A DNA stretch of 21,433 bases, from positions 1-21,433 of the IMG/VR virus record IMGVR_UViG_3300022200_009226; one strand, written 5' to 3'. The notes under the pieces were generated by a model. The model did no database searches. It saw only the letters and a list, made by a program, of their open reading frames with translations, and was not told the DNA's origin. Source of the DNA: a virus. Shown piece after piece: positions 1-17,675 of the stretch. Numbering within the stretch: position 1 is the first letter of the stretch; the number at the start of each line of letters is the position of its first letter. The position numbers were made by a program, and so were the translations under genes.

Positions 1-2678
1 CGGGTGGACTCCTTCACGCGGCCGGTCTTGGGGCCGCGCCGAACCTTGATGTCCTTGTCGTTGAACACGACATAGTTGTAGCGTAGTTCAGTATCCACAC
101 CTTCGGCTAAGGCCTTTCGGGTATAGCCGGTGTAATACTTATTCCCGCGTACACCCTGTTTCAGGAGCGCCTCACTAGCGGCCGACTGCGAGCCAAACCG
201 CTTCGTAAGCACTTTGTAGATATTCTCACCCTTTTGTCCTTTTCGCTCCTCGATACCGAGTCTTGTAAGTGCGGCCTTCACCAGGTCGGATTGTTCGCTA
301 AACCCCTTCTCCCAATGGAGATATTCCTCCTGTGAAGGGGCCAGATCGACGTTATATTCGTAGGTAGGCCGCTTGATTTTTTGTGGCTCTCCAAAGGGAT
401 AGTAGTTACCTACATCCTCCCCTTCCATGAGTCGCCTCTCAATATCGTCTACAGATAGCCCATCAGGCAACTTGATCCGAGTAGGATCCTCTAGATCATC
501 AACAGGAAGATAGACCGCCCAGAGTCCCTCCCTATCCTTGACAATGGTTGGAGAGTAGTCCCCCATCGGATGAGCGAGAACCTTAGCACTTTGCGGATCA
601 GGAACAAAATCCGTAGCACTACTCTTCCCGCCCCGTGTCCAAGAGTAGGCGACCTCGCCTAGTGTTTCTTCGTAGAAATCCTTTACCTTGGAGCTATCGG
701 TGAAGTAAAGGCCGTGCCCGAACTTCTGCGCCCCTTCGCCGGAGCCCACCTCACTCAGCTTGAACTCCTCGAACTCATAGGGGGAGACGTGGTAAAGCGT
801 GCCCTCAATCGGGGTATCCTGCTTGGCAAGCCGCTTCTCCAGATCGACCTGGGCCTCCATGATCTCCGTATTGGTCATGGAGCCGACGCGCCGGCCCTTC
901 ACCCGCTTGCCACCGGACACCATGTTGTGCCGCCACGGGCGCAGGAGATCGACGGGGCGCGTGAACTCGACACCGCCGGTGGTCACCTTCTCCGCGTCCA
1001 GGGCTTGCGGGACGAAGGGAACCTTCTCATCGAAGGGGCTGCCCCGGACGGTGGCCTCGATATCGTCGAGGAGCCGCTGGAGGAAGGCGTGGCCCTGCTC
1101 GGTCACCCCCTCGCCCTTGAGCGCGTTGCGGATCTGGAGTTTCGCTTGCTCCAGGGTGGCCGGCGCGCGGCTGACGAGTTGATCGGTAAGGGCGTTCAGG
1201 CTGGCGAGCGCGTCCTTGCTGTTCCCGCCCATGTGACGGAGGTGTTCGATCACCTCGTCGGCGGCAGGATCCAGTTCTGCGAACGAGGCCATGAGGCCGT
1301 GGACGAGTTCGGGGCGGACACCGAGCTGATCGGCTGCGGCCCGGACACCCTCCTGGAGGTCGCGGGTGACCTGTTCTGCGCCCTGGAGGATGCTGTTCTG
1401 GTGGATCTTGCGCGTCCGCTCGGCGGCTTGGATCGCATCACCCTTGAGGTTCAGGTCAGAGATGAAGCGGCGGCGCAGACCCGAGGTGACCGACTTGCTC
1501 AACTTGAACAGGCCGGGGAACTGGAGCGCGTCCTTGCTGAATCCGCCGACCACGGCGGCCTCGGCCCCGGAGATCGCGGCCTGGGCCTGTTGGATTGCGC
1601 CGTAGAACAGTCCGGTGTTCTTCTCCAGTTCGGCGGCGGTCTGCGGGATTCTGATCTCTTGTGAGAGGGTTCCCGTGGGATCGAGGATCGAGCCGTAGAG
1701 TTCGCGCGCCCGGGCCAGCCCCTTCTCGGTGGGCCGGATACCGAGCGCGATGGCGAGAGCCTGCTCATTGGTCTTGCCTTGCGCTTGCGCCTTGGCGAAC
1801 AGAGAAGCCATTTTCGCCCGGCGGGGCAGGAGTCGCGCACCGAGATCCGTGGAGTTGGTGATGACGTGCGAGGCCATCTCGGGCGTGAGGAAGTGCCCGA
1901 GGGCATCGGGGAGTGCCCCGACCACGGGCGCGAAGGTCGCCGCGCTCCTGCCCTGCGAGATCGCACGGCCGGCGGAAGCGAGCGAATCGAACATATCGGC
2001 CACTCCCGGGATTGCTCGCATCGGCTTGGCGAGGGAGGCCGCCATCCCAACGAGCTTCTTGTTGCCGCTGTGGAGCATCTCGAACCAGGAGTTCGCGTAG
2101 GTGGGGACGCGGATCGAGAGCCCGGTGGCCTTGCCGATGAGGGGCGCACCGACGAGTAGGTCGTGGTCGCGTCCGCGCTTCATCAGGTCGGCCACGGTGT
2201 TGATGTTCGGGTCGCTCGGCAGCGCGTCGATGAGCGCCTGGAACTTCCGGCTGGCCTTCGGGTTGCTGATCTTCGCTGCGGCCTTCTGCGCGGCATCCTT
2301 GAAGTCGCCGTAGAGCATACGCCCGACACCGGCCTCGGTGGAGGCGAACTCGGCCAGGCGACCGGAGCGGGCGATCTTGGTGGCGGCGTGTGCCCCCTTC
2401 GCGGCGAGGGTGGGCGCAGAGAAAAGGAAGGACAGCGGATCGGTCACCACCGAGCCGCCGAGTTGCGCCCATACATTCTCCCCAAACATCTCCTCGGGCT
2501 CGACGTCGTTGGCATGGGAGAAGGCCATACCCAGCACGGGCGTAAGCGCGGGGTCGAGGAGCCCCTCCTTGCTGAACAGATCGACATCTTCCTCCTTGAG
2601 CGCCCGCCAGATTCTCCAGACGAGTTGTTGGGGCAGCCCGAAGGTGCTGTTGATGACGCGGTTGAAGGTGCTGTCCAT
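1..2678 (-). CDS. Ejection (internal virion) protein, gp16 position, with C-terminal ART-like domain; partial
   Basis: I read an uninterrupted minus-strand frame from ATG at 2678 to the window edge (at least 892 residues), so the C-terminus is missing. The first ~600 residues are Ala-rich and helical with hydrophobic stretches (for example around residues 75-95), as expected of a large internal virion protein. Residues ~626-880 match the ART-PolyVal family pattern: GTLYHVSPYEFEEF, a GSGEGAQKFG stretch, HGLYF (H655, Y658), then GFSEQSD, ASEALLKQGVRG and YNYVVFNDKDIKV near the end. Candidate ART residues are H630 and Y658; the third catalytic residue is not resolved. The gene starts 4 bases after the preceding stop with no clear ribosome site, so translational coupling is likely. 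Position last in a gp14/gp15/gp16-like trio suggests it is ejected with the DNA. Bases ~61-710 are much less G+C-rich than the rest. The gp16 role is inference; the ART-like domain is a strong family match from memory. Confidence 0.8.
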   Translation of the reverse strand, partial: MDSTFNRVINSTFGLPQQLVWRIWRALKEEDVDLFSKEGLLDPALTPVLGMAFSHANDVEPEEMFGENVWAQLGGSVVTDPLSFLFSAPTLAAKGAHAATKIARSGRLAEFASTEAGVGRMLYGDFKDAAQKAAAKISNPKASRKFQALIDALPSDPNINTVADLMKRGRDHDLLVGAPLIGKATGLSIRVPTYANSWFEMLHSGNKKLVGMAASLAKPMRAIPGVADMFDSLASAGRAISQGRSAATFAPVVGALPDALGHFLTPEMASHVITNSTDLGARLLPRRAKMASLFAKAQAQGKTNEQALAIALGIRPTEKGLARARELYGSILDPTGTLSQEIRIPQTAAELEKNTGLFYGAIQQAQAAISGAEAAVVGGFSKDALQFPGLFKLSKSVTSGLRRRFISDLNLKGDAIQAAERTRKIHQNSILQGAEQVTRDLQEGVRAAADQLGVRPELVHGLMASFAELDPAADEVIEHLRHMGGNSKDALASLNALTDQLVSRAPATLEQAKLQIRNALKGEGVTEQGHAFLQRLLDDIEATVRGSPFDEKVPFVPQALDAEKVTTGGVEFTRPVDLLRPWRHNMVSGGKRVKGRRVGSMTNTEIMEAQVDLEKRLAKQDTPIEGTLYHVSPYEFEEFKLSEVGSGEGAQKFGHGLYFTDSSKVKDFYEETLGEVAYSWTRGGKSSATDFVPDPQSAKVLAHPMGDYSPTIVKDREGLWAVYLPVDDLEDPTRIKLPDGLSVDDIERRLMEGEDVGNYYPFGEPQKIKRPTYEYNVDLAPSQEEYLHWEKGFSEQSDLVKAALTRLGIEERKGQKGENIYKVLTKRFGSQSAASEALLKQGVRGNKYYTGYTRKALAEGVDTELRYNYVVFNDKDIKVRRGPKTGRVKEST

Positions 2679-2682
2679 TGGC

Positions 2683-5211
2683 CTAGTTGATCCGGTTGCG
2701 CGTTTCCTTGATGAACTGGTGGACGAGTTGACTGGCATCCTTCCCGTCCCACGCCCACATCGAACGCGGGTAGAGGCTGTTGAGGCGTTCGACACCCAAC
2801 TCCTCCAAGTCCTCGGTGGCCTTGATATAGATGTTTGCGAGGCGCTCGAACTCGTCAGCGGTAGCCTCGGCTTGGGCACTCCGGCTCGCCGCCTGGGGGT
2901 CGGCCCCTTGCGAGAACTGATCCTTCCGGGTGCGCCAGATGGTAGCGATGCGGAGCAGCTTGTCGCCGTAGTCCAGTTCGGAGTAGTCCTCCCCGAGGTC
3001 GGTGGCGATGACTTCCTGGAAGTTGTCGAGGTTGAAGCCCTGCTTGACGAACTTGCCCTGGAGTCGCTCCGCCAGTTCTTCCGCCGATCCGCTCAACCAG
3101 TCCTCGTCAATGAGCTGCCGGAGGATCGGGCGGGTTTCGGTCTGGGCCTTCTGCCGCGCTTCGAGCTTCTGGAGTTGGAGGTTGGCGCGGGTCAGTTCGG
3201 AGGTTTTCTGGTCACGAATGACTTGCGGGGCCGCTTCGCTGAGTGCCCCGAGTTCATCTTCGAGCCGCTTGGCGGTAGCAGCCTGCGCAATAACGGCCTC
3301 CTCCTCAATGGAGGGTTCGACCATCACAGCGGCGAGCTGTCCGACCACCGCGTCCGCTGCCAAGGGGCGTTCCTCTTGTCTAACGACAACCGCTGCCGCA
3401 CGGCTATAGGTTCCATTTTCGATGAAGGTATCAACTTCCCCGCGATCTTTCAGGGCAAGATACCACCGCGCCCTGACGATATTAGGCCCGTAGTGTTGGG
3501 GCATGGGCCCGCCGGACTTGACTCCGAGGAACCGGGCGACCGGCCCGTTTTGGATCGCCAAACCGATGCGGCCCCACTCGCCCATATTATTGTAAGCCCT
3601 GGTTTCCTGTTCGAGTAAGGGTAGTTTGGTAGCAAGTTCCTGCGCATCCTCGATGAGTCTACGCCGCGCGGCCTTTCCTTCCGGGCCAGCGGAACTCAGT
3701 TCACCCGCATTATCCCTCTCCCGTACCATGACCTTGGGGCTGCCTAGTCCAGGCACACGTTCGGGTGACGAGGTAGGCCACCGCCCCCTCCTGATCTTCA
3801 CTTCTTCCCTCCCTACGCCGCCAACAGCGGAGTCAATGGCAGAAGCGAGATCAAGCGTCTGGGAAACATCGGCCCGATCGACGAGCGCGGCCGACTCCGC
3901 CGGCGACGGCGTGGGGCCGGGCATACGCTCGCTCATCATCTCGTAGATTTCGGTGGCTGTTCCAGCGCCGAGGAGCGCGTTGAGCCGGCGGGTGTCCGTG
4001 TAGGGATTCACGCTCCTCCGCGCAAAGTCGGTGGCGAGATCCTCGATGAACAGGTTGCGCCCACGCGGAGTGAGCGTCCCGTCCGTGTTCATCACTTCCT
4101 TCGGCTTGGCCCGCGCGAACTTGCCCGCATCGAAAGCCTCCGGGCTACCGCCGAAAGAGTTACCCAGGCGGGTGACATAAGCCGTATGGAGTTCCCCAAC
4201 CGTCTGTTCCTCCTTCTGGGCGGTTTCCCTATCAAGTTTAGACCGCACCGCATCAGGGGAGAGCCGCTGGATATCGGCGTAGAGGGCCGGATCCTCCAGG
4301 AGGACATCTTCGAGAGTCTTTTCTCCGATCTTCTTCTGGAGCGCCGTGATTTCAGGGTCGTCGGTTACCGCGTTGATGATCGCGGTGTAGTTCGGCTGGT
4401 ACGGCGCGATGGCCTGGTTGACGATAGCAGAGCTACCTTCCACCTGCTTGATGAGTCCTGGAACACCCGACAGTTCCTCGACACCACCGGCGAGAGCCTT
4501 GCGGAGAGTGTCCTGCTTGATCGTACGGTTCTGCGCCATATAAGCCGCTCGGAACGCGCGGTCGCTGGCCTCCTCGGGGGTGAGCCCGTTGACCGCGATG
4601 TTGAGTTCCTCGGCGGTGGTCGCGCGGAGTACTGCCTCCGTTCTGCGGTCGTTGGCCTTCTGCTGTCGTTCTTGCGCCCGAACCTCCCGATCCTCCTTCT
4701 CGTAGTACTGTTGCTCCATTTGGAGGCCAAGAGCCGCGCGCACCTTTACGGGCAGGTCGGGGTTCTCGCGCATCAGGGTACTCATGGGGCCCCCGACCTT
4801 ATCATCCTCCAAGAGCCGCTGAACCTGGGCCTCCGCGAGCAGGTTGGCCTCCTCCTCGGTACGCACCTTCTCCTGGGTGTTCAGGCGGTTCCCGAGGGCC
4901 GCGTCCAGTTCACTCCCCGATGCCCCAGCGAAGGCTTCCGCGCCGCCCATCTCGTCGAAGGCGGCCTTGGTGAGCGGATTGGAGTTCGCCCGTTGGATGG
5001 CGCGGTCGAGTCCTTCCTGCCGTTCGGTGTCCGCTTCCTCCTTCTTACGCCGGCGTTCGTCCTGTGCGGCGAGTTGTTGGAGGTACTGCGGGAGGGTATT
5101 CGTCTTGTTTACGGCGTCCGCGTAGCCGATCACGCCGCCCGCGAGCGCAGCGGGAAGCGAGGCGAGGAAAGCCTTGCCGAGGTTCGGGGAGGTGTCCTTT
5201 TCTTCTGCCAT
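2683..5211 (-). CDS. Ejection (internal virion) protein, gp15 position, coiled-coil rich
   Basis: 842 residues, highly charged and mostly helical, with long Glu/Lys/Arg/Gln-rich coiled-coil segments (about residues 45-75, 160-195, 640-700). A hydrophobic segment lies near the N-terminus (about residues 14-32, ASLPAALAGGVIGYADAV). No enzymatic motif is visible. Length (T7 gp15 is about 750 residues) and position between a small helical protein and a very large one fit the middle protein of a T7-type ejection complex, which forms part of a channel across the periplasm during DNA entry. The ATG at 5211 follows a good ribosome site (AAGGGAG, 7 bases upstream) 17 bases after the preceding gene. 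Base composition drops in the middle of the gene (about 3300-3900), hinting at mosaicism. The assignment rests on gene order and architecture, not on a recognised sequence family. Confidence 0.65.
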   Translation of the reverse strand: MAEEKDTSPNLGKAFLASLPAALAGGVIGYADAVNKTNTLPQYLQQLAAQDERRRKKEEADTERQEGLDRAIQRANSNPLTKAAFDEMGGAEAFAGASGSELDAALGNRLNTQEKVRTEEEANLLAEAQVQRLLEDDKVGGPMSTLMRENPDLPVKVRAALGLQMEQQYYEKEDREVRAQERQQKANDRRTEAVLRATTAEELNIAVNGLTPEEASDRAFRAAYMAQNRTIKQDTLRKALAGGVEELSGVPGLIKQVEGSSAIVNQAIAPYQPNYTAIINAVTDDPEITALQKKIGEKTLEDVLLEDPALYADIQRLSPDAVRSKLDRETAQKEEQTVGELHTAYVTRLGNSFGGSPEAFDAGKFARAKPKEVMNTDGTLTPRGRNLFIEDLATDFARRSVNPYTDTRRLNALLGAGTATEIYEMMSERMPGPTPSPAESAALVDRADVSQTLDLASAIDSAVGGVGREEVKIRRGRWPTSSPERVPGLGSPKVMVRERDNAGELSSAGPEGKAARRRLIEDAQELATKLPLLEQETRAYNNMGEWGRIGLAIQNGPVARFLGVKSGGPMPQHYGPNIVRARWYLALKDRGEVDTFIENGTYSRAAAVVVRQEERPLAADAVVGQLAAVMVEPSIEEEAVIAQAATAKRLEDELGALSEAAPQVIRDQKTSELTRANLQLQKLEARQKAQTETRPILRQLIDEDWLSGSAEELAERLQGKFVKQGFNLDNFQEVIATDLGEDYSELDYGDKLLRIATIWRTRKDQFSQGADPQAASRSAQAEATADEFERLANIYIKATEDLEELGVERLNSLYPRSMWAWDGKDASQLVHQFIKETRNRIN

Positions 5212-5228: not shown

Positions 5229-5759
5229 CTAGAAGATCGCCGCGCCGAGCGCAGTACCGAACCCACTACTCATAAGGCCGCCCGCAACACCCGCCGCCGC
5301 ACTAAGCCACTCGTTCCGCTTCATCGAGGCGGCCTGGATTTCCGCAGCGCGGATAGTCGCATCAGCCGAGATGAGCGCGTCGATCGGGGCTCCCTTGAAG
5401 CCTGCCTGCGTCTGCTGGACGAGGATCCCGGTTTGCTGCTGAATCATGCTCTGTCGTGCGAGCTGGTTCTTCACCCGCATCTGCTCGCGCTGGAGGAGCC
5501 CCTGACTAAGCGCACCGAGCGCGGCGTAGGGGTTCACTCGCCCACCGAGCCCGGCCTGCTGTCGGGCCTGGACATCCGTGGTGGCGATCTGCGAGCGGAT
5601 CGCCTGGGTCACTCCTGCGCTGAGGATCGGGTCGAGGTCGTCCTGCGTCTCCAGATCGTCGATCTGCCGCAGGAGCATCGCCTGAGAGGTGGCCGCACCC
5701 TGGACGCTCTGGAGTTGTTGGCGGCCCAGAAACTTCGATTGTCGCATGTAGTCGGTCAT
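5229..5759 (-). CDS. Small ejection (internal virion) protein, gp14 position
   Basis: 176 residues from the ATG at 5759. This ATG overlaps the TGA of the upstream gene (TGATG) and has GAGGTGGG as ribosome site; an in-frame GTG at 5768 would add three residues but is less well placed. The protein is Gln/Ala-rich and helical (repeated QQ, QAG and RQS stretches). It ends in a Gly/Ala-rich hydrophobic segment, AAAGVAGGLMSSGFGTALGA, that could insert in a membrane. T7 gp14, the ejection protein that lodges in the outer membrane, has similar size (196 residues), composition and position after the nozzle gene. Role inferred from these features; no catalytic motif. Confidence 0.65.
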   Translation of the reverse strand: MTDYMRQSKFLGRQQLQSVQGAATSQAMLLRQIDDLETQDDLDPILSAGVTQAIRSQIATTDVQARQQAGLGGRVNPYAALGALSQGLLQREQMRVKNQLARQSMIQQQTGILVQQTQAGFKGAPIDALISADATIRAAEIQAASMKRNEWLSAAAGVAGGLMSSGFGTALGAAIF

Positions 5760-6028
5760 CAGTCCCACCTCGCTAGTACGGCGAAGTCGCTACCAGGGGC
5801 AGCGTCGGTATTGAACACAATGTCTTTCGCGCCGGGGCGGGTGGCCCTGCGGTCGATTTCGCTATTTCCTGCGAGTTGTCCCACGATGCGGAGCGGTCGC
5901 CCCTTTCTGGGGTTCTCGACCACTCCCCCGCCGTCAGACATAGCCTTGCCACGAAGCACAACGGCCCCGTCCCAGTCTGCGCCATTGAGCGGCAGGCCGT
6001 CGCGGTCGAAGTGGTTGGGCTTAGGCAT
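5759..6028 (-). CDS. Hypothetical small virion-operon protein
   Basis: 89 residues starting MPKPNHFDRDGLPL and ending FAVLARWD. I do not recognise a family. It is soluble, has no membrane segment, and the middle (VENPRKGRPLRIVGQLAG) looks beta-rich. The start lies within the end of the nozzle gene (8-base overlap ATGCCTAA) with GGAGGTG as ribosome site inside that gene, and the end overlaps the start of the gp14-like gene, so it is made coupled to both. Position between nozzle and ejection genes suggests a small tail or assembly component, but this is only context. Confidence 0.75.
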   Translation of the reverse strand: MPKPNHFDRDGLPLNGADWDGAVVLRGKAMSDGGGVVENPRKGRPLRIVGQLAGNSEIDRRATRPGAKDIVFNTDAAPGSDFAVLARWD

Positions 6029-9000
6029 TTACACCTCCAGTCCTATCCCCTTGTAGGGGGCTGATTTCCGCAGAGATGTATCCTACACGATTTGCTGCCG
6101 GAGCGCAAGCCCGCGCCACGATCCGATGGAACCGCGCCCGTGTTCCCACCGTGGTCGGGAACGAGGACTGGTAGTTGTCCAGGCCGGAGAGGCTGGCCGG
6201 GTCGCCGGGGTCGTCCTTGCTCTCATGGGACACCTCCCAGGTTCCCGAGATCGCGGACAGATCGACATCCTTGAGGCGGACGGCTTCCGCGCCGCCCTCG
6301 GTCAGGTTGTCCGGGCCGGTGTCGAGGAAGGTGTAGTTGTCGTCCACTCCGAAGTAGACGAGAGCCCCCTCATTGGGGGTGAAGCTCAGGGCGGACTCCA
6401 GGATGATGCCGTTCGCATCGGAGTAGTCCACGACCCCGGTATCCCTGTTACTGCCGTCCACGACGAGGACGCGCTGGCCCTTGTAGTCCCAGTAGCGCGT
6501 AGTATCGTCGGGCTGCTGGATGTTGGTCGTCAGACCCGTGAGCTTGATGTTCTGGGAGGTGGTCGTCGTCTCAGCCGCGTCGTCCACGTCCTGCGCCGCG
6601 TAGACCTCATCGCCATAGGTCGTCTTGTCGCGGTAGGAGGCGAACCCGGTCGTGTGGACGAACCATGCCTTTCCGTCCACGTCCGTCGTCCCCCGGATCT
6701 CCCGCGTTTCGCGCGTCCATTCCTTAGAGGGGAAGTGGTAGCGAAGGCTGTCGCCCGTGGACTCGTCGATCACGATGAGCGAGGCGAGAGCCGCGCTGAC
6801 GGCGAGGCGGCAGTTGTCCACCGAGGGGAGGAGATCACGGATCGGGCGGCCGAAGTCCACGGGCTCTTGTCCGGGCACTAGTTCCCAGAGCGTCCCATTG
6901 AAGGAATAGGCGCGGCCGGCGTGGGTTGTCAGGCAGCGGGCGTTATCCGCGCCGATGCCGCCGCCGAGGGACACCGGGCGGGTGGCCGAGGGGCTGCCCT
7001 CCAGGAACATCGCCCAGTCGCGGCCCATGACGAGCGCGAGGCCGCCGAGTTCGGTCGCGGCGGTGATGGCCGAGCCAGAGGGGGCGGTTACGTGATACTT
7101 CATCCAGACCGGATAGGACTCGATGCCCTGCTCACCATACTCTGCGAACCACAGGACGTGTTCCTCCAGGGGGTCGCCAAACAGCCCGAGTTGCTGGTTC
7201 CAGAGGAATGCGCCCTTGACGTGGGTGGGGGCGATGCCGCTACCCTCGTCCACGATGGCTCCGAGGCCGGCGTCAGGGATGTTGTCCCGGTAGGAGGCCA
7301 CTCCCACGGGGATCGTAGCGAGGACAAACATCGGCTGATTCCGCACGATGCGCTTCGCTTCCCGGACTTCCTCGTCATCCAGGGGATCCTCGACAGGGAA
7401 GAACTCCGTGCGACAAAGCTCGAAGGCAGAGATGTACTGTCCGGGCGGGGCCGGAATATCGCGTCCAGACAGCGCGATGATCGTAGCGTCCGCGCTGGTG
7501 TAGGACATGATATCCGGGCTGACTACCGAGGTTCCCTTGTTGTCGATAGTGTTAGGCGTCCCGGCGGTCACGTCCCCCGTGAGCATCCGGTAGTAGTGGA
7601 CGAGTTCCGACCAGTTCGCTTGAGGGACGCGGGTAGTGATCCACTTGAAGTCGCCAGGGGTGGTGTACTTGTGGGTATCCCACATACGCACTTCGGCCAG
7701 GTCGGTCTTGTATTGGTTGTCGCCGCCCTCGCGCCACGTGCCGTAATCACAATCCCAGACATTTGCCCCGCTCGTCGTATCCCGCGCCACAGCGTTGCCG
7801 GCCACGCCGGTCTTTCGCTGTCCATTGAGGAACAGGTCGTTGATCGCAATCGTGCCGCTCGCGCCGTCCGTCGCCGTGAAGTTAGCGGTGACCCAGTTGA
7901 AGGCGCGGCGGTTCGTCGTGAGCGGATTGCTGTTACCCTGGTCGAGCCGCTCATTGAACTCGCTGTAGAGAAGCGAGTCGCCAGAGCCGGCGATGAGCGA
8001 ACCGTTACCGATGCGCGACCATCCCCAGTAGAACGGGGAGGTGCTCACATCGGTCGAGGAAGTCGGACGCATCACTTGCGCCCACGCCGTGTACTCGAAG
8101 TCCCAGACGGAGGGGCAGGAAGCACGGAGGCGGTTCTCTTGGTGGCCGCCGTTGGCTCGCGTATCCCTGTCCTTCCGGTTGATCCAGTAGTCGATGTTCT
8201 GGACACGATCCCGCACCTGCTTGGTCGTGTCGTAATGGCGGTCGGTAGCGAACGGGATGTCGTGGAGCAGATCGACCAGCATGTTCGCGTCGAGGAGCGG
8301 ATCGAAAAAGCGATACTTCGTCTCGCGCACTTGGAGGTCGCTCAGGCCACGCTCCCAGAGGCGGAAGTGGCTAAGGGTGTGGTCATCCTTGAGCTTCGTG
8401 TTGCTTCCGTCCGGGATGTTCGTGCCCGCCGACTGGTAGATACCCGGCTCGTTGATCGAGCGGCAGCAGCCGATCCCGATGTTCGCTCCAGGCCGCCCGA
8501 TGAAGTTGGAGAGGGTGATCGTGGTGGTCTGCTTCGTCCACGTCTCTACGCCGGCGGCCGTCCGCTCGTAGACCCACATCTCGACCAGATCGCCCACCTT
8601 GGTCAAGACGATGTTGTAGAAGTTCCCGGTGGTGAGCTTCTTGTCGGCCGCGTTGTTGAACCACGTCATAGTATAGACGTAGGCTCCCGAAATGGTTTCG
8701 TGGCGCGTATTGCCGTAGGACACGACCAGTTCATTGTCCCCCGAGCCGCTGTTGTCGTTGAACAGCGAGACAACGATATCATTGGTCAGGGTATCGGGAT
8801 CGGAAACCGCTACATGGCCCGTCATGTCGTTTACGCGCCCAATGGTGAACAGCGTTTCCGCGTCATCGTTAGCGGGATCAGCCCCGAGCGCATAGGCGAA
8901 CTGGACGGTGAAGTCACCAGAAGTGTCCACCGTGCCGTTCTCGACACCGTTGATCTGCGCCCACAGTCGGGCGTCGGCCCCGGCTTGGTCGTCCCCGAGT

Positions 9001-11249
9001 AGGCCACGCTCCCAGATTTCCTCTCGGAGATCCCGGTCATCTAGGGTGGGGTCGAGGCGGACGAGGGACTCTACCGAGTAGTTGCCGGCCGGGACGGAGT
9101 TGTGGACACCGACCGAGTAGTCGTCGGCCGTGCTAAAGTGGCCGTCCGCCGGAGTGACCGTTTGGCCGTATTCCGCGCCGAGGCCGTTACTCGCGCCGCC
9201 GATGCGGGCCGCCTCGTTCTCAAACAGCGAGGGGCCAAAGCGGAGGAGGGGGCCGCGCGTCCCGTCCTTGGTGAGCCACCGGTAGCCGTAGGCGCACACG
9301 CCGTTCAGGAGGCCCGGGCCGGACGGGATAGGCGTGAGCTTCACCGTAGGCTTGGGAACACCGAGCGGGCGCATGGCCTTGGAGTCGGTGTTGATGACGT
9401 ATGCCTTGTTGTTCGAGGCAAGCAGCACCCGGTTACCAAAGCGGAGGGTCACCGCGTCGGTCGCCAGGAGGTCATTCAGCATCGGCTCGATGTAGGGGGC
9501 GGGCTCGGCGCTTGTCGAGGGGACGAGCGGCCCGAACTGCCCAAAAAGGAGCGAGTGCCCCGCCGCGACCACCTCGCCGTCGTCGATCGGCCCATCCGTC
9601 CAGAACGGGGGAGCCTGCTCGTCACCGGCAGACGAAGCCGGAATCTCCAGAGCGGCCGTGAGGTTGTTCTTGCCGAGGTCGGGCACTCGATCCTCGGTGG
9701 CCCGGGTCGCGTCATGGAACATGATCGCAGCATCCGGGCGGATTTCCGCCAGCGCCGACAGGCCAGAAGCGAAGGCCGCGAGCGGGGTATTCGAGCCCCA
9801 CATGGCCCACCCCTTCACCTTGCCTCGGAAGGGGTAGGTGAACTGCTCGCCCGACGTTCCGGGGGTATCGTCGCGGTACATCCCGATAAACAGTTCGGGG
9901 AGGGTATCCTCGTCCAGTTCGGGGCCGAGGCCCACGATGGCGGTCGAGGTCGTCGCGTCCCCGTCCACTCGCAGGCGAGCGCGGGCGGGCGAGCGGTTGA
10001 CCGAGAAGATATACTGAGTGCTGGCCGAGAGGTTGGTCGAGTTGGTGAGGTTCTTTGTGCCCTCGCCCGTTTCGACGTCAGCAAACACACGGAGGTTGCC
10101 CGCCACATTCTCCAGATAGATATGAAACAGGCCGGGGAGGTGCGCCAGCGTGGCCTTCGTGCTGCCCGAGGAATCATAGAAGGTCGTCTCGGTCGGCGTA
10201 GTGGCCTGGATGATGAACGACCAGTCTTGTTCCTTCTGGTCGGTTTCCGGCGTATCGAAAAACTGTTCGAGGAGCGGGCTATACTCGACGTGGGCCACCC
10301 CGCCGTCCCCGGAGAACTCGATGCTGTCGCCCTCGTTGAGGACAGGCCGGTTCGGGACGAGGTAGGAACGCTCGGTGGTATAGTCCGCACCACTTTCTGC
10401 GAAGGAGCCGCCCTCGTTACCCTTGAAGTAGAAGTCCAGGTTGGCCGCGTCGTCGGCGGGGCGGTCACCGATGGAGGCGAGCATCGCGGCGTTGGAGAGC
10501 GCGGTGCGGTAGACCTTGACGTTGGCGACCACGGGGGACACCCCTTCCGGCTCGGCGTTGAGCTGGGTATCCGCCCGGAAGGACTTGCCGAGCAGGGTCG
10601 TTTCGATCTGGGTCGTGCCGCTGAATACGTGGGTAGTCAGCGCGGCGGTATCCTGCTGGTTGAGCGAGGTGGGGTGCTTGCCCACCACCCCGAACAGGTA
10701 GAGGTCGCCGGCAGCCGGAGCGCCGTCCCGCTGGAAGAATACATGGATCGCCTGGTCGGGACTGGGGATCGTCGTGGACGGCCCCCACTCCAGTTCGGTC
10801 GTGCCCGTGCCGGAGTCGGTAAAGGATGCGACCACGGAGTAGACGGGGAGGCCTGCCCCGCCGTCGCCGTTCACTCGCAGGGCGATGGCGATCTCGGCCC
10901 TGGTCGAGTCGATGTCGCCGGAGCGGAACAGGATGAAATCGCGGTCGCTGTTGGTATCCGTGGCGAGAGCGCCCGGCTTGAAGGACAGGCAGACCGTCCA
11001 GTCGTTAGCGAACGTCTCGCCCGAGGCGAACAGCGGCGCACGGGACATGACATACCCGTTCGTACCCTGAGTCCGAGAAACGCCGCCGCCCGGAGCCCTC
11101 CGCGAAGTGGCGGAGCGCACCGAGCCGTATCGGGTATCCAGCGTAGCCGACCCCGGCCGCGTGTTCTTCTTATCGAACGCGGCGGGGGTATCGACGAGCG
11201 GGTTCCGATTGAGCGGAAGCCGGTCGAGTCTTACCCTTTGATGCGCCAT
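6021..11249 (-). CDS. Giant tail nozzle-like beta-propeller protein with four LamG-like modules
   Basis: 1742 residues. The N-terminus (LNRNPLVDTPAAFDKKNTRPG, residues 13-33) resembles the opening of podovirus nozzle/tubular proteins. Residues ~65-265 and ~305-500 read as LamG/concanavalin-like modules (SFKPG, GKVKGWAMWG). Residues ~555-690 have nozzle-type propeller sequence (NRVLLASNNKAYVINTDSK, CAYGYRWLTKDGTRGP). Two more LamG-like modules follow at ~715-985 (HFRLWERGLSDLQVRE) and ~1040-1225 (AEVRMWDTH). The propeller then resumes at ~1270-1560 (LALVMGRDWAMFLEG, RCLTTHAGRAYSFNGTLWEL), with a beta-rich C-terminal region after it. The position after capsid and adaptor genes matches T7 gp12, which is only about 794 residues. 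The sugar-binding type modules would decorate the tail tip and may take part in host binding. The start at 11249 is supported by the conserved-looking N-terminus, although it overlaps the upstream gene by 80 bases and its ribosome site is weak. Module boundaries were judged by eye. Confidence 0.75.
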   Translation of the reverse strand: MAHQRVRLDRLPLNRNPLVDTPAAFDKKNTRPGSATLDTRYGSVRSATSRRAPGGGVSRTQGTNGYVMSRAPLFASGETFANDWTVCLSFKPGALATDTNSDRDFILFRSGDIDSTRAEIAIALRVNGDGGAGLPVYSVVASFTDSGTGTTELEWGPSTTIPSPDQAIHVFFQRDGAPAAGDLYLFGVVGKHPTSLNQQDTAALTTHVFSGTTQIETTLLGKSFRADTQLNAEPEGVSPVVANVKVYRTALSNAAMLASIGDRPADDAANLDFYFKGNEGGSFAESGADYTTERSYLVPNRPVLNEGDSIEFSGDGGVAHVEYSPLLEQFFDTPETDQKEQDWSFIIQATTPTETTFYDSSGSTKATLAHLPGLFHIYLENVAGNLRVFADVETGEGTKNLTNSTNLSASTQYIFSVNRSPARARLRVDGDATTSTAIVGLGPELDEDTLPELFIGMYRDDTPGTSGEQFTYPFRGKVKGWAMWGSNTPLAAFASGLSALAEIRPDAAIMFHDATRATEDRVPDLGKNNLTAALEIPASSAGDEQAPPFWTDGPIDDGEVVAAGHSLLFGQFGPLVPSTSAEPAPYIEPMLNDLLATDAVTLRFGNRVLLASNNKAYVINTDSKAMRPLGVPKPTVKLTPIPSGPGLLNGVCAYGYRWLTKDGTRGPLLRFGPSLFENEAARIGGASNGLGAEYGQTVTPADGHFSTADDYSVGVHNSVPAGNYSVESLVRLDPTLDDRDLREEIWERGLLGDDQAGADARLWAQINGVENGTVDTSGDFTVQFAYALGADPANDDAETLFTIGRVNDMTGHVAVSDPDTLTNDIVVSLFNDNSGSGDNELVVSYGNTRHETISGAYVYTMTWFNNAADKKLTTGNFYNIVLTKVGDLVEMWVYERTAAGVETWTKQTTTITLSNFIGRPGANIGIGCCRSINEPGIYQSAGTNIPDGSNTKLKDDHTLSHFRLWERGLSDLQVRETKYRFFDPLLDANMLVDLLHDIPFATDRHYDTTKQVRDRVQNIDYWINRKDRDTRANGGHQENRLRASCPSVWDFEYTAWAQVMRPTSSTDVSTSPFYWGWSRIGNGSLIAGSGDSLLYSEFNERLDQGNSNPLTTNRRAFNWVTANFTATDGASGTIAINDLFLNGQRKTGVAGNAVARDTTSGANVWDCDYGTWREGGDNQYKTDLAEVRMWDTHKYTTPGDFKWITTRVPQANWSELVHYYRMLTGDVTAGTPNTIDNKGTSVVSPDIMSYTSADATIIALSGRDIPAPPGQYISAFELCRTEFFPVEDPLDDEEVREAKRIVRNQPMFVLATIPVGVASYRDNIPDAGLGAIVDEGSGIAPTHVKGAFLWNQQLGLFGDPLEEHVLWFAEYGEQGIESYPVWMKYHVTAPSGSAITAATELGGLALVMGRDWAMFLEGSPSATRPVSLGGGIGADNARCLTTHAGRAYSFNGTLWELVPGQEPVDFGRPIRDLLPSVDNCRLAVSAALASLIVIDESTGDSLRYHFPSKEWTRETREIRGTTDVDGKAWFVHTTGFASYRDKTTYGDEVYAAQDVDDAAETTTTSQNIKLTGLTTNIQQPDDTTRYWDYKGQRVLVVDGSNRDTGVVDYSDANGIILESALSFTPNEGALVYFGVDDNYTFLDTGPDNLTEGGAEAVRLKDVDLSAISGTWEVSHESKDDPGDPASLSGLDNYQSSFPTTVGTRARFHRIVARACAPAANRVGYISAEISPLQGDRTGGVNA

Positions 11250-11745
11250 AAGCCACGGTGTTCTCGGAGTTCTGTCCGCGCAGCGCCGCCTTCTCGATCC
11301 GGTAGATTTCCGATTCGTGGAGGAGGACGTAGGCGGTATTGACAGCAGCAGCCGCGAGGCCGGAGGTCACCTCGAAGGCGAGCCCACCCGGGCAGTAGCG
11401 GCCGGCGATGATGTCCGGCGTTGAGCGGGAATCGCTGCCAGGAGTACGGATTACCCAGATGAGATCCTGCCCGGAGGCCGGGGTGGATACATCGGCAGGG
11501 GACGACCACTTCACCTCGGTCGGGTTAGCATTCTGGTTCACGACCTCGCCCTTGATGAAGAAACAGGGCTCCTCCGTGATAAGGACGGTAGAACCCGCAG
11601 CCGCGCCGCCGACATTGGTACGGACTTTCGACGCCCGCCAATCCCCCTGAATGACGGTCTGCCCCTGCGTACGGACATTACTAGTCGTCGCGGTCGGGGG
11701 CTCAGGGCCGCCTCCTCCGCCCGGCGGGGTAATGGGTTCAGCCAC
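11170..11745 (-). CDS. Hypothetical beta-rich protein between adaptor and nozzle
   Basis: 191 residues from a GTG at 11745 that overlaps the upstream stop (8-base overlap GTGGCTGA). The N-terminus is low complexity (PITPPGGGGGPEPPTATT). The centre (residues ~25-165) is beta-rich with alternating hydrophobics (TVLITEEPCFFIKGEV, DLIWVIRTPG, TAYVLLHESEIYRI). The last ~22 residues are Arg-rich and lie inside the nozzle gene in another frame. No family recognised. The position suggests a head-decoration, tail or fibre-attachment protein. The unusually long overlap makes the true C-terminus uncertain. Confidence 0.7.
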   Translation of the reverse strand: MAEPITPPGGGGGPEPPTATTSNVRTQGQTVIQGDWRASKVRTNVGGAAAGSTVLITEEPCFFIKGEVVNQNANPTEVKWSSPADVSTPASGQDLIWVIRTPGSDSRSTPDIIAGRYCPGGLAFEVTSGLAAAAVNTAYVLLHESEIYRIEKAALRGQNSENTVAYGASKGKTRPASAQSEPARRYPRRVR

Positions 11746-12565
11746 GCTTGTAGACCTGCTTGGCCGAAGCCGTGTTCTTCATCTCGTCGGAGGTGTCCTG
11801 AACGGCGCGGGCGGTCGTGCCCACGGCGACCGGATCGGCCACCTCGTCCCAGGTTTGCCAGATCGAGCGCATCTTCTCCAGCACGGCATCGAGGACAGGC
11901 TCGGGCCACTCCAGCTCTGTGCCGTCCGCCGTGATCTTGGGGTTGAACTTCGACTGGTAGACCGCCACGCGACGGGCCGCCGAGGGCGCGGGCCACAGCG
12001 AGATGAACGAGGCGTCGTGCGCGTCGGAGTAACCCTGGTGGAAGTAGTTGGGCTCGGCGTGATCGGTCGCGCCCGCCTCGATCGCCATCGGGAGCGGGTG
12101 GAGCCGGCGGCCGTTGTCGCTGCCCGCCAGGTTGACCACGCTGCCTACTTGCCCCTCGGAAGGGAGCTTGACCGCGCGGCGAGTGATCGTGATGTCGCCC
12201 GTCTGCGCGTCGAGAATCGGTGCGCCGACATCAAGCACCGTCTCGCTGGTCACCTCGTAGACGAGGTATTTGTTCGAGCCGATGGTCACGATGTCGCCCT
12301 CGAACACCCCGTCCGTGATGAAGGAGGACGCGCCGCAAGTGATCGAGGAGGACTTGGCCGAGTGGGCCGTGATGGTCGCGCTGAGGGATCCCCAGGTCGA
12401 GCCGATCATAACGCGAGAAGCGAGGCCGCCCGCCCCATCAGAGAGGAGACGGGCGACCGCAGCATTGAGGCACTCGTCTGCCCTGCTGGTGGCAATCGTC
12501 GAAGCGGTCGAGATACCAAGCCGGGTGAAGAACCGGCTACGCAGAGCAGAGCGAGTTTCAGCCAT
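11738..12565 (-). CDS. Putative head-to-tail adaptor (tail tubular A / gp4-like)
   Basis: 275 residues. The N-terminal ~45 residues are helical and look like an adaptor N-terminus (RSRFFTRLGIST, ADECLNAAVARLLSDG). A beta-rich middle follows (residues ~50-185), and the C-terminal third includes WPEPVLDAVLEKMRSIWQTW. In podoviruses the gene right after the capsid gene usually encodes the ring joining portal to nozzle (T7 gp11, P22 gp4), and both size and helix-beta-helix layout fit. It starts 9 bases after the capsid stop with AAGGG as ribosome site and is coupled to the next gene. Assignment is mainly by position and architecture; I do not see a diagnostic motif. Confidence 0.65.
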   Translation of the reverse strand: MAETRSALRSRFFTRLGISTASTIATSRADECLNAAVARLLSDGAGGLASRVMIGSTWGSLSATITAHSAKSSSITCGASSFITDGVFEGDIVTIGSNKYLVYEVTSETVLDVGAPILDAQTGDITITRRAVKLPSEGQVGSVVNLAGSDNGRRLHPLPMAIEAGATDHAEPNYFHQGYSDAHDASFISLWPAPSAARRVAVYQSKFNPKITADGTELEWPEPVLDAVLEKMRSIWQTWDEVADPVAVGTTARAVQDTSDEMKNTASAKQVYKRG

Positions 12566-12574
12566 CAGCCCTTA

Positions 12575-13747
12575 TCAGGCAGAAGTGAAGGTGTAGCCGG
12601 AGATGCCGAAGAACGAGCGGCGGCCGCCATCCAGGGCGAACTGACGCTTGTACTCGACACGCTGGTACAGGTTGGACTTGAGATCCACGACCTGGACACC
12701 GCCGATCCGACGCAGGAAGCTGAACGACTGACCCGGAGCGCCGGTGTAGGAACCGTCGCCGCTGTGGCAGAGGTTCAGACGCAGGCTGTTCAGGTTCATG
12801 CCGATCATCGGGAGGCAGGCGGTAGCCGTCGCGGTGTTCAAGTCCCAGTCAGCATCCAGATCCCAGTAGCGCGTCCAGTCGATCATCACGCCGCCGAAGT
12901 TCAGCTCACCGAAGGTGGTCACCTGGACGCCCATCGGAGCCTCGAACGCGCCCTTGTCGCGCAGGAGATCCTTGAGCTTGGTGTAACCAACGAGGGTGGT
13001 CAGCACGTGAGTCGGACGCTCCACTTCCGAGTAGGAGCAGGTGGCGATGGCGTTGTCCAAGTCGTTCCACAGGTTCGAGCCGTCCGGGCTGGCCGTCTCG
13101 AAGTTCTGCGGGGTGTGCTTGGCAACGTCAGCCGTCTTGATGTTGGCGAAGGTGGTCGAGGTGGCCGAAGCCAGGTTGCCGGCGAAGCCAGTCGAAGTGT
13201 TCAGGATCGACAGGATGTTCATGGGCATACCCGCCGAATAGCCGGTGTCCGCCTCGGCAGGCGCGTGAAGGGCGTAGGTCGGGTTACCGTCGCCATCCGG
13301 GTCGCCGGTCAGGAACAACTGCTCCTCGGTGTTCCAGATGTTCATCATCTTGGCCTTGACCAGGTTCTCCATGTAGGAGAGCTGATCGCCCTGCGGCTGG
13401 CTCTGCGGGAACACGAAGTTCTCGGTAGCCGCAACGTAGTGGTAGATCGAGTGGGTCAGGAAGTCCTCGGCGGAAGTGCTGAGGGCAGTACCCGGGGCCG
13501 CAGAGTTGAAGGTCGAACCCGAGAGGTGATCGGCCTCGTACATCGCGGTCTTTTTGGTCAGACCGTAGAGCAGCGGGTAACGAACGTTGTCCGCGTCCTT
13601 CACCAGGAACACGCGGCCACGCCGGTTCAGCTTGTTGAGGATCTTCTCCCCACCATCGGTGAGGGTGTTGGCCGGGTTGCGGCCGTACTCATCAATGACC
13701 GTCGCAACGGTCGTGTTCAGCGTTTGAGTGTAAGTCGGGAGCGCCAT
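12575..13747 (-). CDS. Major capsid protein
   Basis: 390 residues, the expected length for an HK97-fold capsid protein. The N-terminal region (residues ~1-110) is followed by a helical segment (ENLVKAKMMNIWNTEEQLFL, 127-146) that reads like the spine helix, then the loop TGDPDGDGNPTYAL (147-160), in the place where many capsid proteins carry a GD-rich loop. The C-terminal part has beta strands of the A-domain type (LNFGGVMIDWTRYW, GGVQVVDLKSNLYQRVEYKR). The gene follows the scaffold-like gene directly, and its ribosome site is the strongest in the window (repeated GGAGG just before the ATG), as expected for the most abundant virion protein. Codon use is strongly biased to G/C-ending codons. 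The assignment is firm from context and fold pattern, though the exact family is not named. Confidence 0.85.
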   Translation of the reverse strand: MALPTYTQTLNTTVATVIDEYGRNPANTLTDGGEKILNKLNRRGRVFLVKDADNVRYPLLYGLTKKTAMYEADHLSGSTFNSAAPGTALSTSAEDFLTHSIYHYVAATENFVFPQSQPQGDQLSYMENLVKAKMMNIWNTEEQLFLTGDPDGDGNPTYALHAPAEADTGYSAGMPMNILSILNTSTGFAGNLASATSTTFANIKTADVAKHTPQNFETASPDGSNLWNDLDNAIATCSYSEVERPTHVLTTLVGYTKLKDLLRDKGAFEAPMGVQVTTFGELNFGGVMIDWTRYWDLDADWDLNTATATACLPMIGMNLNSLRLNLCHSGDGSYTGAPGQSFSFLRRIGGVQVVDLKSNLYQRVEYKRQFALDGGRRSFFGISGYTFTSA

Positions 13748-13802: not shown

Positions 13803-14510
13803 CTACAGCTCGCCCCAGTTGATGGTGATGTTGCCGGAATCCTTCCCGCCACGCAGGCGATCACGGATCCGCTGGCTCGTCTCGCGGGCTCTTTTCATCT
13901 CCTCCGGCTCGTTGATGGATCGCTCCTCACCGTTCACTACGGAGAGAGGGATACCATCACTCGTCGAATAGCCGTGCTGCGGGCCAGCGGCCTCGGCCTC
14001 GGCTTCCGTCAGAAGTGCCCCCGAGAGGAGAACCAGCGAGTTCACCCCCGCCTGACTCAGGAGAACCTCGGGCGTGATTCGCCCCGCCTCGACCTGCTCC
14101 TTGTAGTAGGAGGCAAACTTGTCGTAGGCAGGAGTGCCCTTCTTGATCCCCTGTTGTTCCAGCGTGGACGACAACGAACGCCGCGCCGTTTCGCGCTTCT
14201 CGATCAGTTCGAGAATGCGCTCCTCCGACATCTGCGGCGGCTGAGTTTCCTTGTCTTGGGTTTGGTTAGCTCGGTTTTGAAGGAACTTCTCGTCCCACTT
14301 CTCCCGGGCCTTGTTCACCGCCTGAGAGGTGCGCGACTCGACCGCGTTACGGATCGACTCGGGCCACTCGTCGAACGGCTTGCTCGGATCGAAGCTACTG
14401 GACGATACCGGCGGTTTGCCGGGGTTAGCAGCAGCGTTAGCGGCTTCCTGTTCCAGGTCTACCGACTTGGGCGGCTCCTGGTGAGGATCTACCTCTTTGC
14501 TATCAGTCAT
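13803..14510 (-). CDS. Capsid scaffolding protein (putative)
   Basis: 235 residues, strongly hydrophilic. A disordered acidic and Pro/Ser-rich N-terminus (residues ~1-45) precedes charged helices (ESRTSQAVNKAREKWDEKF, EERILELIEKRETARRSL). The C-terminal helix (PEEMKRARETSQRIRDRLRG, ~201-220) is basic, typical of scaffold C-termini that bind the capsid protein. There is no catalytic motif, so a separate protease function is not indicated. The gene sits directly before the capsid gene, after a consensus promoter and a leader of about 72 bases, with AGAGGAG as ribosome site. Scaffold is the usual occupant of this position in podoviruses; identified by composition and place. Confidence 0.75.
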   Translation of the reverse strand: MTDSKEVDPHQEPPKSVDLEQEAANAAANPGKPPVSSSSFDPSKPFDEWPESIRNAVESRTSQAVNKAREKWDEKFLQNRANQTQDKETQPPQMSEERILELIEKRETARRSLSSTLEQQGIKKGTPAYDKFASYYKEQVEAGRITPEVLLSQAGVNSLVLLSGALLTEAEAEAAGPQHGYSTSDGIPLSVVNGEERSINEPEEMKRARETSQRIRDRLRGGKDSGNITINWGEL

Positions 14511-14589: not shown

Positions 14590-14618
14590 ATTGTAACATG
14601 TGACGGAGGGGCTGTCAA
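14590..14618 (-). promoter_or_regulatory. Sigma70-type promoter P3, before scaffold and capsid
   Basis: On the minus strand: perfect -35 TTGACA (14618-14613), a 17-base spacer, and -10 TACAAT (14595-14590) preceded by TGT (extended -10). Expected transcription start is near 14583. The spacer's last ten bases and the -10 are the same as in the promoter at 17647. It lies just behind the zinc-ribbon gene and would boost scaffold, capsid and downstream tail genes. Confidence 0.85.
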
Positions 14619-15028: not shown

Positions 15029-15302
15029 CGTCCTCGGATTCTTCCTCGTTCTCGATCTGGATCACGACGGGGGCTGCGAAGTGTTTGCTCTCGATCGCCA
15101 TCAGCGCGTACCTAAGCATTCCGACCACCTCGTAAATCCCACCGCCCGATGCGGAATAGGTGACGAGGGGCTCATCAGATGCCCCGATTTCTTCATCCTT
15201 ACGGTAGATGAGGACGAACGCATCATGCCTTTTGACGAACTCGGACAGGAGTTCATCCGAACTATAGAACTCAAGCGGACTCGGGCCACGTTCTCTAGGC
15301 AT
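15021..15302 (-). CDS. Hypothetical small protein after the portal gene
   Basis: 93 residues: a mixed alpha/beta core (AFVLIYRKDEE, GIYEVVGMLRYALMAIES) and a very acidic tail (IENEEESEDDA). No family recognised and no membrane segment. It starts inside the end of the portal gene through an 8-base overlap (ATGCCTAG) and ends inside the start of the zinc-ribbon gene in the same way, so its translation is coupled on both sides. Confidence 0.75.
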   Translation of the reverse strand: MPRERGPSPLEFYSSDELLSEFVKRHDAFVLIYRKDEEIGASDEPLVTYSASGGGIYEVVGMLRYALMAIESKHFAAPVVIQIENEEESEDDA

Positions 15303-17241
15303 TTCGCATCAGGCCGGGGGCAGCGCCGGCGGCGAGGAAAGGCGAGGCGGCGTTGTCGGTCACCTGCGCCCCTACCGTGCCCTGCGCGGCCATACCGAGT
15401 TGGCGCTGCTCTTGTCGCTGGAGGGCGAGCTGGTGCTTGTCGCGGGCGATCTGGATCTCCCCGATGTCCATAGCACCCTGAGCCAGGGCCGGGTTGCTCA
15501 TCACCTTCTGGAGGAGCTGGTCATAGTAGGCGAAGAACATCGCGTGTTGATCGCTATCAAGGACGGGCAGCGGATCGCCGCTCATCGCGTGTTCGATCAG
15601 ACGCTCCTCCGGCGAGGTGTCCAGCGACGGCACGTTCAGGAGGACATCGGCATCGGACACCCCCGAGAGCTTGGCAAGACGCCGCACCATTTCGCGGACA
15701 AGGGCGGGCATACGTCCGCCGAAGTTCGCCATCTGCTGCCCGATGAGCTGAGTGATGAACGTCAGACTGTCGATCTCACCGCGCCGGCTCAGGGCTTCCA
15801 GTTCGATCGGATCAACGTCGAAAGTGTAGGCCGCCTCGCGCGGATCGGGAACCGGGAGCTTCTTGGTAAGGAGGCGCTGGCCCACCGTGACCGGGATCTC
15901 CAGCGTCTTACCGTAGAGTTCGCGCTGGTAGGCGTGGGCCACGCGGGCCAGCTTCGAGAAGGCTCGGCTGATGATCTTGAGGCGCTGGCGGTTCTGGCGC
16001 GAGGACACCGCCGTAATGGCCTGAGCCTCGGTCGCGGACTTGCGCGGCTGCGCCGGGATGCCCCGCTCCTGCGGGCCGATGCCGATCACGTCATCGAGCA
16101 GCGCCATGTACTGCTGGAGAGTGCCCAGGTAGTTCCCCAGAACATCGTCGCGCTCGACAGGGCGCATCGTGGCGTTGACGCCATTGTCCGTGTCGTCGTT
16201 GTCTACACCGATGTAGATGGTCGCGCCGGGGTTGCCTGTGATGATCTCCTGGATTGACTCTCCCGCGATCTTGTTCTTGTCGAACAGGACGATCTTGTTG
16301 GTCGTCTTGATCTCCTTGTCGATCTGGACGAGGAGTTGGACGATCATACGGAGGACAGGCAGCCAGGAGAGCGCCTCCGGGGGCGGGATGTCCTCGCCAA
16401 GGGCAGGTTCGAGGAACGCCTCAATGACGATGGGGCACTCCCGGGCTCGCTCGGTGGTGACGTAGTTGCCGAAGCCGGCGGTGTCGCGCTTGCTCTCCTC
16501 GGGCGCGGAGTTTGCGTCACAGTTGACCCACACGGAGAGGGGGACGCCGGGCTTGCCGCGCTCGGGATCCCAGCCGCCGGGGTGGTAGACCTCGGTGACG
16601 CGCACCATGTCCCAGTCCTGTTTGTCCTTGACATCCTTCGGCCGCCACGACTTCGGCAGTTCACCCCACGGCTTATCGTAGGTGTGCCAGAGGTAGCGCC
16701 GGTAATGAGGCTCGTAACCGCATTGGGTCGGGTTGAGCGTCTCGAACTTGACCTTCTTGTAGTCCTCCTTCTCGTCCTTACAAGGAATCATCTTGATAGC
16801 GAAGAAGGGCGAGATCAGGCCGAGGAAGGCGGCCCGATCCATCGCTTCGACCAGTCCGCCGTGATCCGTCTGCCATTCCGTGATGGCGTTCTGATGCTCG
16901 GCCATGCGGACGGCCCCGTGGTTCCTCGCCTTGACCATGAAGGTAGGCTTGGCGGCGACCAGCGACGACACCAGAGTTCTGACCCTAGAGAGGAAAAGGT
17001 TGGCGGTCGTCTCAGGAGGTGACCATCGCTGGCCCACCGTTTTCGTAGCCTCGATCTGGTTGATCGGGATGTCGCCCGTCTGGTTGAGATAGGTGACGAT
17101 AGAGCCGGAGTTGGGGTCACGGCCCGTGTAGATGTCCGCGATCAGGTCGGCCGTCTCCCCGAACACCGGGTCGAACAGACCCTTGGCCTGCTCCATGCTT
17201 TCCTGGAGCGCCTGTGCGGCGTTGGGGGAGAGTTTAGTCAT
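15295..17241 (-). CDS. Portal protein
   Basis: 648 residues, in the size range of large podovirus portals. The N-terminal helical region contains ANLFLSRVRTLVSSLVAAKP (80-99). A central mixed domain follows, then long helices (LPVLRMIVQLLVQIDKEI) and the typical late segment with PRKSATEAQAITAVSSRQNR leading into another long helix, as in portal wing/stem regions. The C-terminal ~50 residues are Gln/Ala-rich (crown-like). The portal forms the dodecameric ring at the capsid vertex through which DNA is packaged by the terminase and later ejected. It begins 3 bases after the 123-aa gene and overlaps the next gene by 8 bases. Identified by pattern, length and neighbours (TerL before, scaffold and capsid after). 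Confidence 0.85.
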   Translation of the reverse strand: MTKLSPNAAQALQESMEQAKGLFDPVFGETADLIADIYTGRDPNSGSIVTYLNQTGDIPINQIEATKTVGQRWSPPETTANLFLSRVRTLVSSLVAAKPTFMVKARNHGAVRMAEHQNAITEWQTDHGGLVEAMDRAAFLGLISPFFAIKMIPCKDEKEDYKKVKFETLNPTQCGYEPHYRRYLWHTYDKPWGELPKSWRPKDVKDKQDWDMVRVTEVYHPGGWDPERGKPGVPLSVWVNCDANSAPEESKRDTAGFGNYVTTERARECPIVIEAFLEPALGEDIPPPEALSWLPVLRMIVQLLVQIDKEIKTTNKIVLFDKNKIAGESIQEIITGNPGATIYIGVDNDDTDNGVNATMRPVERDDVLGNYLGTLQQYMALLDDVIGIGPQERGIPAQPRKSATEAQAITAVSSRQNRQRLKIISRAFSKLARVAHAYQRELYGKTLEIPVTVGQRLLTKKLPVPDPREAAYTFDVDPIELEALSRRGEIDSLTFITQLIGQQMANFGGRMPALVREMVRRLAKLSGVSDADVLLNVPSLDTSPEERLIEHAMSGDPLPVLDSDQHAMFFAYYDQLLQKVMSNPALAQGAMDIGEIQIARDKHQLALQRQEQRQLGMAAQGTVGAQVTDNAASPFLAAGAAPGLMRNA

Positions 17242-17646: not shown

Positions 17647-17675
17647 ATTGTAACATGTGACGGCCCCTATGTCAA
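17647..17675 (-). promoter_or_regulatory. Sigma70-type promoter P2, before the 123-aa and portal genes
   Basis: On the minus strand: perfect -35 TTGACA (17675-17670), a 17-base spacer, and extended -10 TGTTACAAT (core 17652-17647). Expected start is near 17640, giving a short leader of about 24 bases that contains the ribosome site. The -35 hexamer includes the TGA stop codon of the terminase gene, so promoter and gene end share bases. Confidence 0.85.

Follow-up and report, generated by a model that had tools for sequence, protein, structure and literature searches.

The DNA analysed here, referred to as the window, is the entire IMG/VR record IMGVR_UViG_3300022200_009226, a linear virus fragment of 21,433 bases. 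The gene at its edge (3..2678, minus strand), which by gene order takes the gp16 position, raises the question whether a protein of the phage ejection apparatus contains an ADP-ribosyltransferase (ART) and, if so, whether this ART could enter the host cell from the infecting particle. From the ATG at 2678, 892 amino acids can be read. A sequence-only reading had placed the ART at the end of the protein. This is not the case, as no stop codon occurs before base 3 of this linear fragment, so that the apparent end of the protein is the end of the contig, which truncates the gene (2678..<3 in the ORF list, open at the 3' end), and as the giant relatives of its clade continue past the ART. Most likely, the protein hence continues beyond the contig end like those of its clade, and the ART domain is probably interior to a giant protein.

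An ART domain of the H-Y type

A profile built from 70 viral relatives, with the row of the window excluded, scored 156.7 bits over residues 628-880 (39..797, minus strand), and 1,000 shuffled versions of the region reached at most 8.1 bits with the same profile. The ART domain is thus real and far above chance. All five motifs named in the sequence-only reading were found in their place on the minus strand, namely YHVSP (794-780), GEGAQKFG (740-717), HGLYF (716-702), ASEALLKQGVRG (179-144) and YNYVVFNDKDIKV (80-42), and tblastn detected vir555 (E 5e-21) and phiGT1 (E 2e-9). The expected match to ART-PolyVal was borne out by the profile of the relatives and by the fold but not by the Pfam model itself (PF18760), which gave 14.4 bits (E 0.066) against a cut-off of 31.2 and covered model positions 9-46 of 140 only. 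Since the Pfam model alone stays below its cut-off, family membership rests on the relatives, some of which, giants among them, pass that cut-off, and on the fold. We conclude that the domain is a divergent relative of PF18760, not to be filed as a Pfam member, and that it is related to the ARTs of polyvalent proteins, as had been proposed and as the profile, the tree, the Foldseek matches to viral models and VIA-align all indicate. When the PDB was searched with a sequence profile, nothing came up but chance matches to coiled coils, such as HIV gp41. Conservation of residues 647-654 was excluded as evidence, because the scan motif had selected for those residues.

The AlphaFold2 model, computed from 71 sequences, has a mean pLDDT of 78; its core blocks exceed 90 on average, and an insert (model residues 67-99) was poorly modelled. 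In VIA-align, which is a second look at Foldseek's own list, the top PDB match was 9k3a_B (Z 9.8, rmsd 4.4, 143 residues, 20% identity), followed by tankyrase, PARPs, MbcT, NatT and cholix at Z-scores of about 5-7 (7.3 and below), and nearly all rows listed were ARTs. With Foldseek alone, no PDB entry matched at better than 0.001. Against viral models, proteins with ART-PolyVal-like names were found at E 2.7e-13 and weaker, in a list that also holds unnamed and polyvalent proteins up to E 2.4e-15. The predicted structure is accordingly a split-sheet ART fold of the ADP-ribosyltransferase superfamily, H-Y clade, with PARPs and other ARTs among its matches, and the proposed identity of the domain was in this respect supported by structure prediction.

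The strand 1 histidine H630 (789..791, minus strand) and the strand 2 tyrosine Y658 of GLYF (705..707, minus strand), the latter outside the scan motif, are each invariant in 75/75 relatives, so that the window ART has the H-Y pattern and not the R-S-E active site of the T4 Alt / VIP2 clade. Asparagine N868 at the start of the last core strand (75..77, minus strand) is found in 69/69 aligned relatives and corresponds, as we assume from motif alignment, to the position of PARP1 Glu988, the catalytic glutamate of PARPs. R854 is also conserved, and retained in the window. Polyvalent ARTs have been described with H, Y and a strand-5 aspartate (Iyer et al., 2017, PMC5512222), for which N873-D874 (57..62, minus strand) is the candidate site. 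Column 873, directly after VVF, holds D in 52, N in 8 and S in 6 relatives, and 65 of the 69 carry an acidic residue at this column or the next; the window has N873 with D874 beside it.

Relatives and the surrounding genes

Relatives of the domain are encoded on at least 560 IMG/VR viral contigs and in 85 stretches of bacterial genome contigs, whereas of 50,697 phage records only four or five encode one. They fall into two kinds, short ORFs of ~310-480 aa and giants of 2,000-4,200 aa. Of 15 giants scanned, 13 have PF18760 matches at E<0.01 (best E 1.6e-68), some of them perhaps to a second ART copy, and LPD22, LPD23, LPD38, LPD39, ddrB-ParB and DarB-like were each matched in one to three. These extra domain families are the mark of polyvalent proteins, for which at least two unrelated effector domains are expected; in the sequenced part of the window gene, cut by the contig end, the ART is the sole one recognised. 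For residues 1-620 of the window protein no homologue was found, nor any PHROG, Pfam or NCBIfam match marking a gp16 or internal virion protein family, and the protein gave no PADLOC match. Relatives of the domain also occur in very large LPD23 proteins of two Pseudomonas plasmids (L006, L007), which are large and typed as non-mobilizable.

Maximum-likelihood analysis of 75 ART sequences places the window ART in an 18-member clade (98/96 support), the other 17 members of which all lie in ORFs >1,000 aa. Its nearest neighbour is L017 (95/87), a placement that is rough given the long window branch and a bootstrap that had not settled. The 3'-complete ORFs listed for the clade extend 1,122-2,273 residues beyond the ART, and that of Tunturi_5 about 440. 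Neighbours of the giants include the tail tubular proteins phrog_376, 394 and 9239 and the internal virion protein phrog_418, and tail tubular B relatives are present at 12 ART-bearing loci. The order in vir555 and L080 is tail tubular B, phrog_418, gp15-position protein and ART giant. The giant of vir555 (BK063671) is complete at 1974 aa, with an ART ~30% identical to that of the window, and the one of LS06-2018-MD07 (OP947163) comprises ~3120 aa or more, with an ART ~25% identical; both adjoin internal virion protein genes. Close relatives of the window phage itself were found in none of five single-protein IMG/VR scans (ART, residues 1-621, terminase, capsid, tail-tube A), and no phage record matched its portal, capsid, gp15 or tail-tube B proteins.

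All assigned neighbouring genes lie on the minus strand. The clearest of them encodes a large terminase of the T7 type (17672..19294; PHROG 38, E 4e-36), which scored E 6.6e-10 against NCBIfam termin_lrg_T7, below the cut-off of that model, matched roseophage CRP-5 and lau218 in tblastn and was aligned by HHalign at 96% to the A-4L terminase family; in HHalign of the window proteins against tail, portal, capsid and ejection families, it was the terminase only that matched. A 648-aa portal-like gene (15295..17241) has weak PHROG matches to head-tail adaptor (4.7e-4) and portal (7e-3). By gene order, a 235-aa gene (13803..14510) that resembles the A-4L scaffold protein in size takes the scaffold position, a 390-aa gene without a homologue found (12575..13747) that of the major capsid protein, and a 275-aa gene (11738..12565) that of tail tubular protein A; for the latter, a single-sequence AlphaFold2 model was unusable (pLDDT 34). 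The tail tubular protein B position is held by a 1742-aa gene (6021..11249) with a weak laminin-G match (residues 382-481, E 0.011); its counterpart in A-4L has 1015 aa, and the tail tube protein may contain lectin-like insertions. An 89-aa gene (5759..6028) without a homologue found stands in the place of A4L_30 (75 aa). Then follow a 179-aa gene at the gp14 position (5229..5768), assigned by order and composition only (Q-rich, hydrophobic C-terminal segment), and an 842-aa gene at the gp15 position (2683..5211), assigned by gene order only, no homologue having been found.

The gp16 position claimed for the ART gene is thus plausible from gene order and sizes, which agree with A-4L, whereas sequence similarity to gp16 families was not found. 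The same applies to the proposed T7-type ejection apparatus: the terminase is of the T7 type and the order of the genes fits, but homology confirms the terminase only, and the neighbours apart from it (and, weakly, the portal) have no recognisable homologue. From our point of view, the T7-type label is a partly supported, reasoned reading of gene order and terminase, for which the clearer relatives and the A4 particle carry the support.

Three sigma-70-like promoters with TTGACA and a TG-extended TACAAT can be recognised on the minus strand, at 17647-17675, 14590-14618 and 20410-20439, preceding the 123-aa/portal genes, the scaffold-position gene and a 234-aa gene, respectively; the first two have 17 bases in common (CCGTCACATGTTACAAT). 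As judged from these motifs, the structural genes may be read by host RNA polymerase. Upstream of the gene at 20411, tandem repeats are found at 20442-20492 (14-base unit, 3.6 copies) and 20534-20622 (27-base unit, 3.3 copies). No tRNA and no Rfam match was detected in the window.

An ART-like fold in the cyanophage A4 pre-ejectosome

The best structural match, 9k3a, is the pre-ejectosome of cyanophage A4 according to the title of Hou et al. (PNAS 2025, as cited in PMC12810830). Chain 9k3a_B has exactly the sequence of A4L_27, a 1717-aa protein of Anabaena phage A-4L in which the ART-like fold comprises residues 1419-1610. In A-4L, the order is terminase, portal, scaffold, capsid, tail tubular A, B, a 75-aa protein, A4L_29, A4L_28 and A4L_27, and A4L_27, following the internal protein A4L_28, hence occupies the gp16 position. 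The two proteins have in common the ART-like fold, which in A4L_27 was solved in the virion, and this position, which follows the genes for tail tubular A and B and for two internal proteins; they differ in sequence, with 20% identity in the structural alignment. The profile of the ART relatives does not detect A4L_27, so that the link to A4 is structural, and a blastp alignment between EGSLYHGT...GSGTYFSKSS near residues 1421-1454 of A4L_27 and EGTLYHVSP...GHGLYFTDSSK of the window is weak (E 0.084). A hydrophobic 'DP' motif, putatively shared between residues 70-95 and A-4L protein 27, was not retained, as the pattern had been derived from the window and blastp gave E 8. Protein 27 of A-4L (L088 20116-25269) is annotated merely as a tail protein, and its ART-like fold was missed by Pfam. 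With an ART fold at the matching gene position of a solved particle, delivery inside the virion has a precedent in A4 and appears plausible for the window phage.

Delivery, activity and competing explanations

Taken together, we consider it moderately probable that the gene encodes a large virion protein at the gp16 position of a short-tailed phage with a T7-type terminase, and that this protein has an interior H-Y ART that is ejected and ADP-ribosylates a host macromolecule. In this account, the protein would belong to a pre-ejection core packed inside the head and would leave via the tail, with or before the genome, thereby bringing its ART into the cytoplasm of the host close to the entering DNA, where it could transfer ADP-ribose from NAD+ to a host macromolecule in favour of the phage. 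Packaging and ejection are inferred from the gene position, the A4 virion and published work on the ejection proteins of T7 and N4 (PMC8954989, PMC12633501); catalysis and target are guesses. T7 gp16 is stated to build the inner membrane complex and at the same time to recruit the RNA polymerase of the host (PMC12633501). One could speculate that this polymerase is one candidate target of the ART, since the sigma-70-like promoters would fit the use of it by the phage.

Among the known systems, ART-PolyVal and the N4-like ARTs reside in giant multidomain proteins encoded near virion genes, for which injection and modification of host proteins have been proposed (Iyer et al., 2017, PMC5512222). 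The window ART shares the strand-1 histidine and strand-2 tyrosine with ART-PolyVal, but differs by its score below the Pfam cut-off, by N873 and D874 at the third-residue column and by the lack of a second polyvalent domain in the sequenced part. The comparison with T4 Alt that had been drawn is apt in its logic, namely an ART delivered from the virion at infection (which for the window is inferred), but not in its lineage, since Alt belongs to the R-S-E and not the H-Y clade and is no ejection-core protein (PMC5512222). T7 gp16 and the N4 vRNAP (gp50), a giant enzyme among ejection proteins (PMC12633501), resemble the window protein as the largest and, in gene order, third ejection protein, yet no sequence similarity of the latter to gp16 was found, and its sequenced part has neither a transglycosylase nor an RNAP domain.

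One rival reading, rather doubtful in our view, is that the ejection protein retains the ART fold for structural reasons or in degenerate form and no longer transfers ADP-ribose. The window ART may indeed be inactive, given its divergence: it deviates at 15 of 49 conserved columns (median 3), with G631V and D850T among the changes, and only one of the 75 sequences is more divergent. The window ART further has N at 873, commonly an Asp column, and the A4 domain, while keeping YHGT and GSGTYF (by eye), ends in TLVINPDAV without the N or D. On the other hand, H630, Y658, R854 and N868 are all retained, and the sister sequence L017, which has the same NDKD end, deviates at one conserved column. 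The ART could also be an NADase or act on small ADP-ribose compounds, for instance blunting an NAD-based host defence, with no modification of host proteins. H-Y clades do include NADases and NAD+ phosphorylases (PMC9503650), and MbcT and NatT, both solved as toxin-antitoxin complexes, are among the structural matches; their Z-scores are however tied with those of PARPs, so that the fold does not choose, and protein modification is what Iyer et al. expect of polyvalent ARTs (PMC5512222). We regard an action of this NADase or small-compound kind as unlikely. Still less probable is a role outside the ejection apparatus, with the protein remaining in the head or serving as a minor head component in the manner of the short ARTs encoded near the portal: about half of the sampled relatives lie in ORFs <1,000 aa, and phiGT1_5, of the short kind, is found two genes after its portal, but the window gene is located beyond the tail-tube positions rather than beside the portal, and its ART groups with the giants.

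The composition of the gene bears on both the integrity of the contig and the origin of the domain. GC3 is 0.855 over residues 1-600 and 0.587 over residues 629-880, and after residue 880 it recovers (12/12 codons); within the ART module, a synonymous GC3 valley spans residues about 661-868 (75..698, minus strand), and the observed ART GC3 of 0.58 compares with 0.85 expected for identical amino acids. An abrupt change inside a gene near the contig end is what an assembly chimera would produce, in which the low-GC last 800 bases were joined by error. We nevertheless judge such a join to be highly improbable, as the frame is open across the change, GC3 recovers behind it and the ART of relatives lies at the equivalent gene position, and as such valleys are usual at their ARTs: synonymous GC3 was lower in the ART than in the rest of the ORF in 31 of 35 giant relatives (among L008-L085), which are not independent of each other, against an average of 16.4 and a maximum of 23 of 35 for equal-size random windows over 200 draws. 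The simplest reading of the valley suggests that the ART was acquired or exchanged as a cassette; a constraint on translation could be an alternative cause. A wider version of this idea, to which we would assign a low probability, is that the ART travels as a mobile effector cassette, inserted repeatedly by short-tailed phages into the ejection protein that is first in the host cytoplasm, so that a membrane-anchored ART would modify host RNA polymerase or another target at the site of DNA entry, with the window showing a recent acquisition and the A4 pre-ejectosome being the first such particle to be solved.

Overall, the window ART is a further example of the class of injected ARTs that was proposed in 2017, with relatives in hundreds of uncultivated phages. 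Among injected ARTs, T4 Alt is still the case that has been worked out, and most of the relatives come from phages not in culture. The analysis connects the domain with the gp16 position, with these hundreds of phages and with a domain in the solved virion of a cultivated one, and the recurrent synonymous GC valley suggests that ART effectors are exchanged as cassettes. As such, the prediction of an injected ART becomes testable, since A-4L is a cultivable phage whose protein 27 is open to assay.
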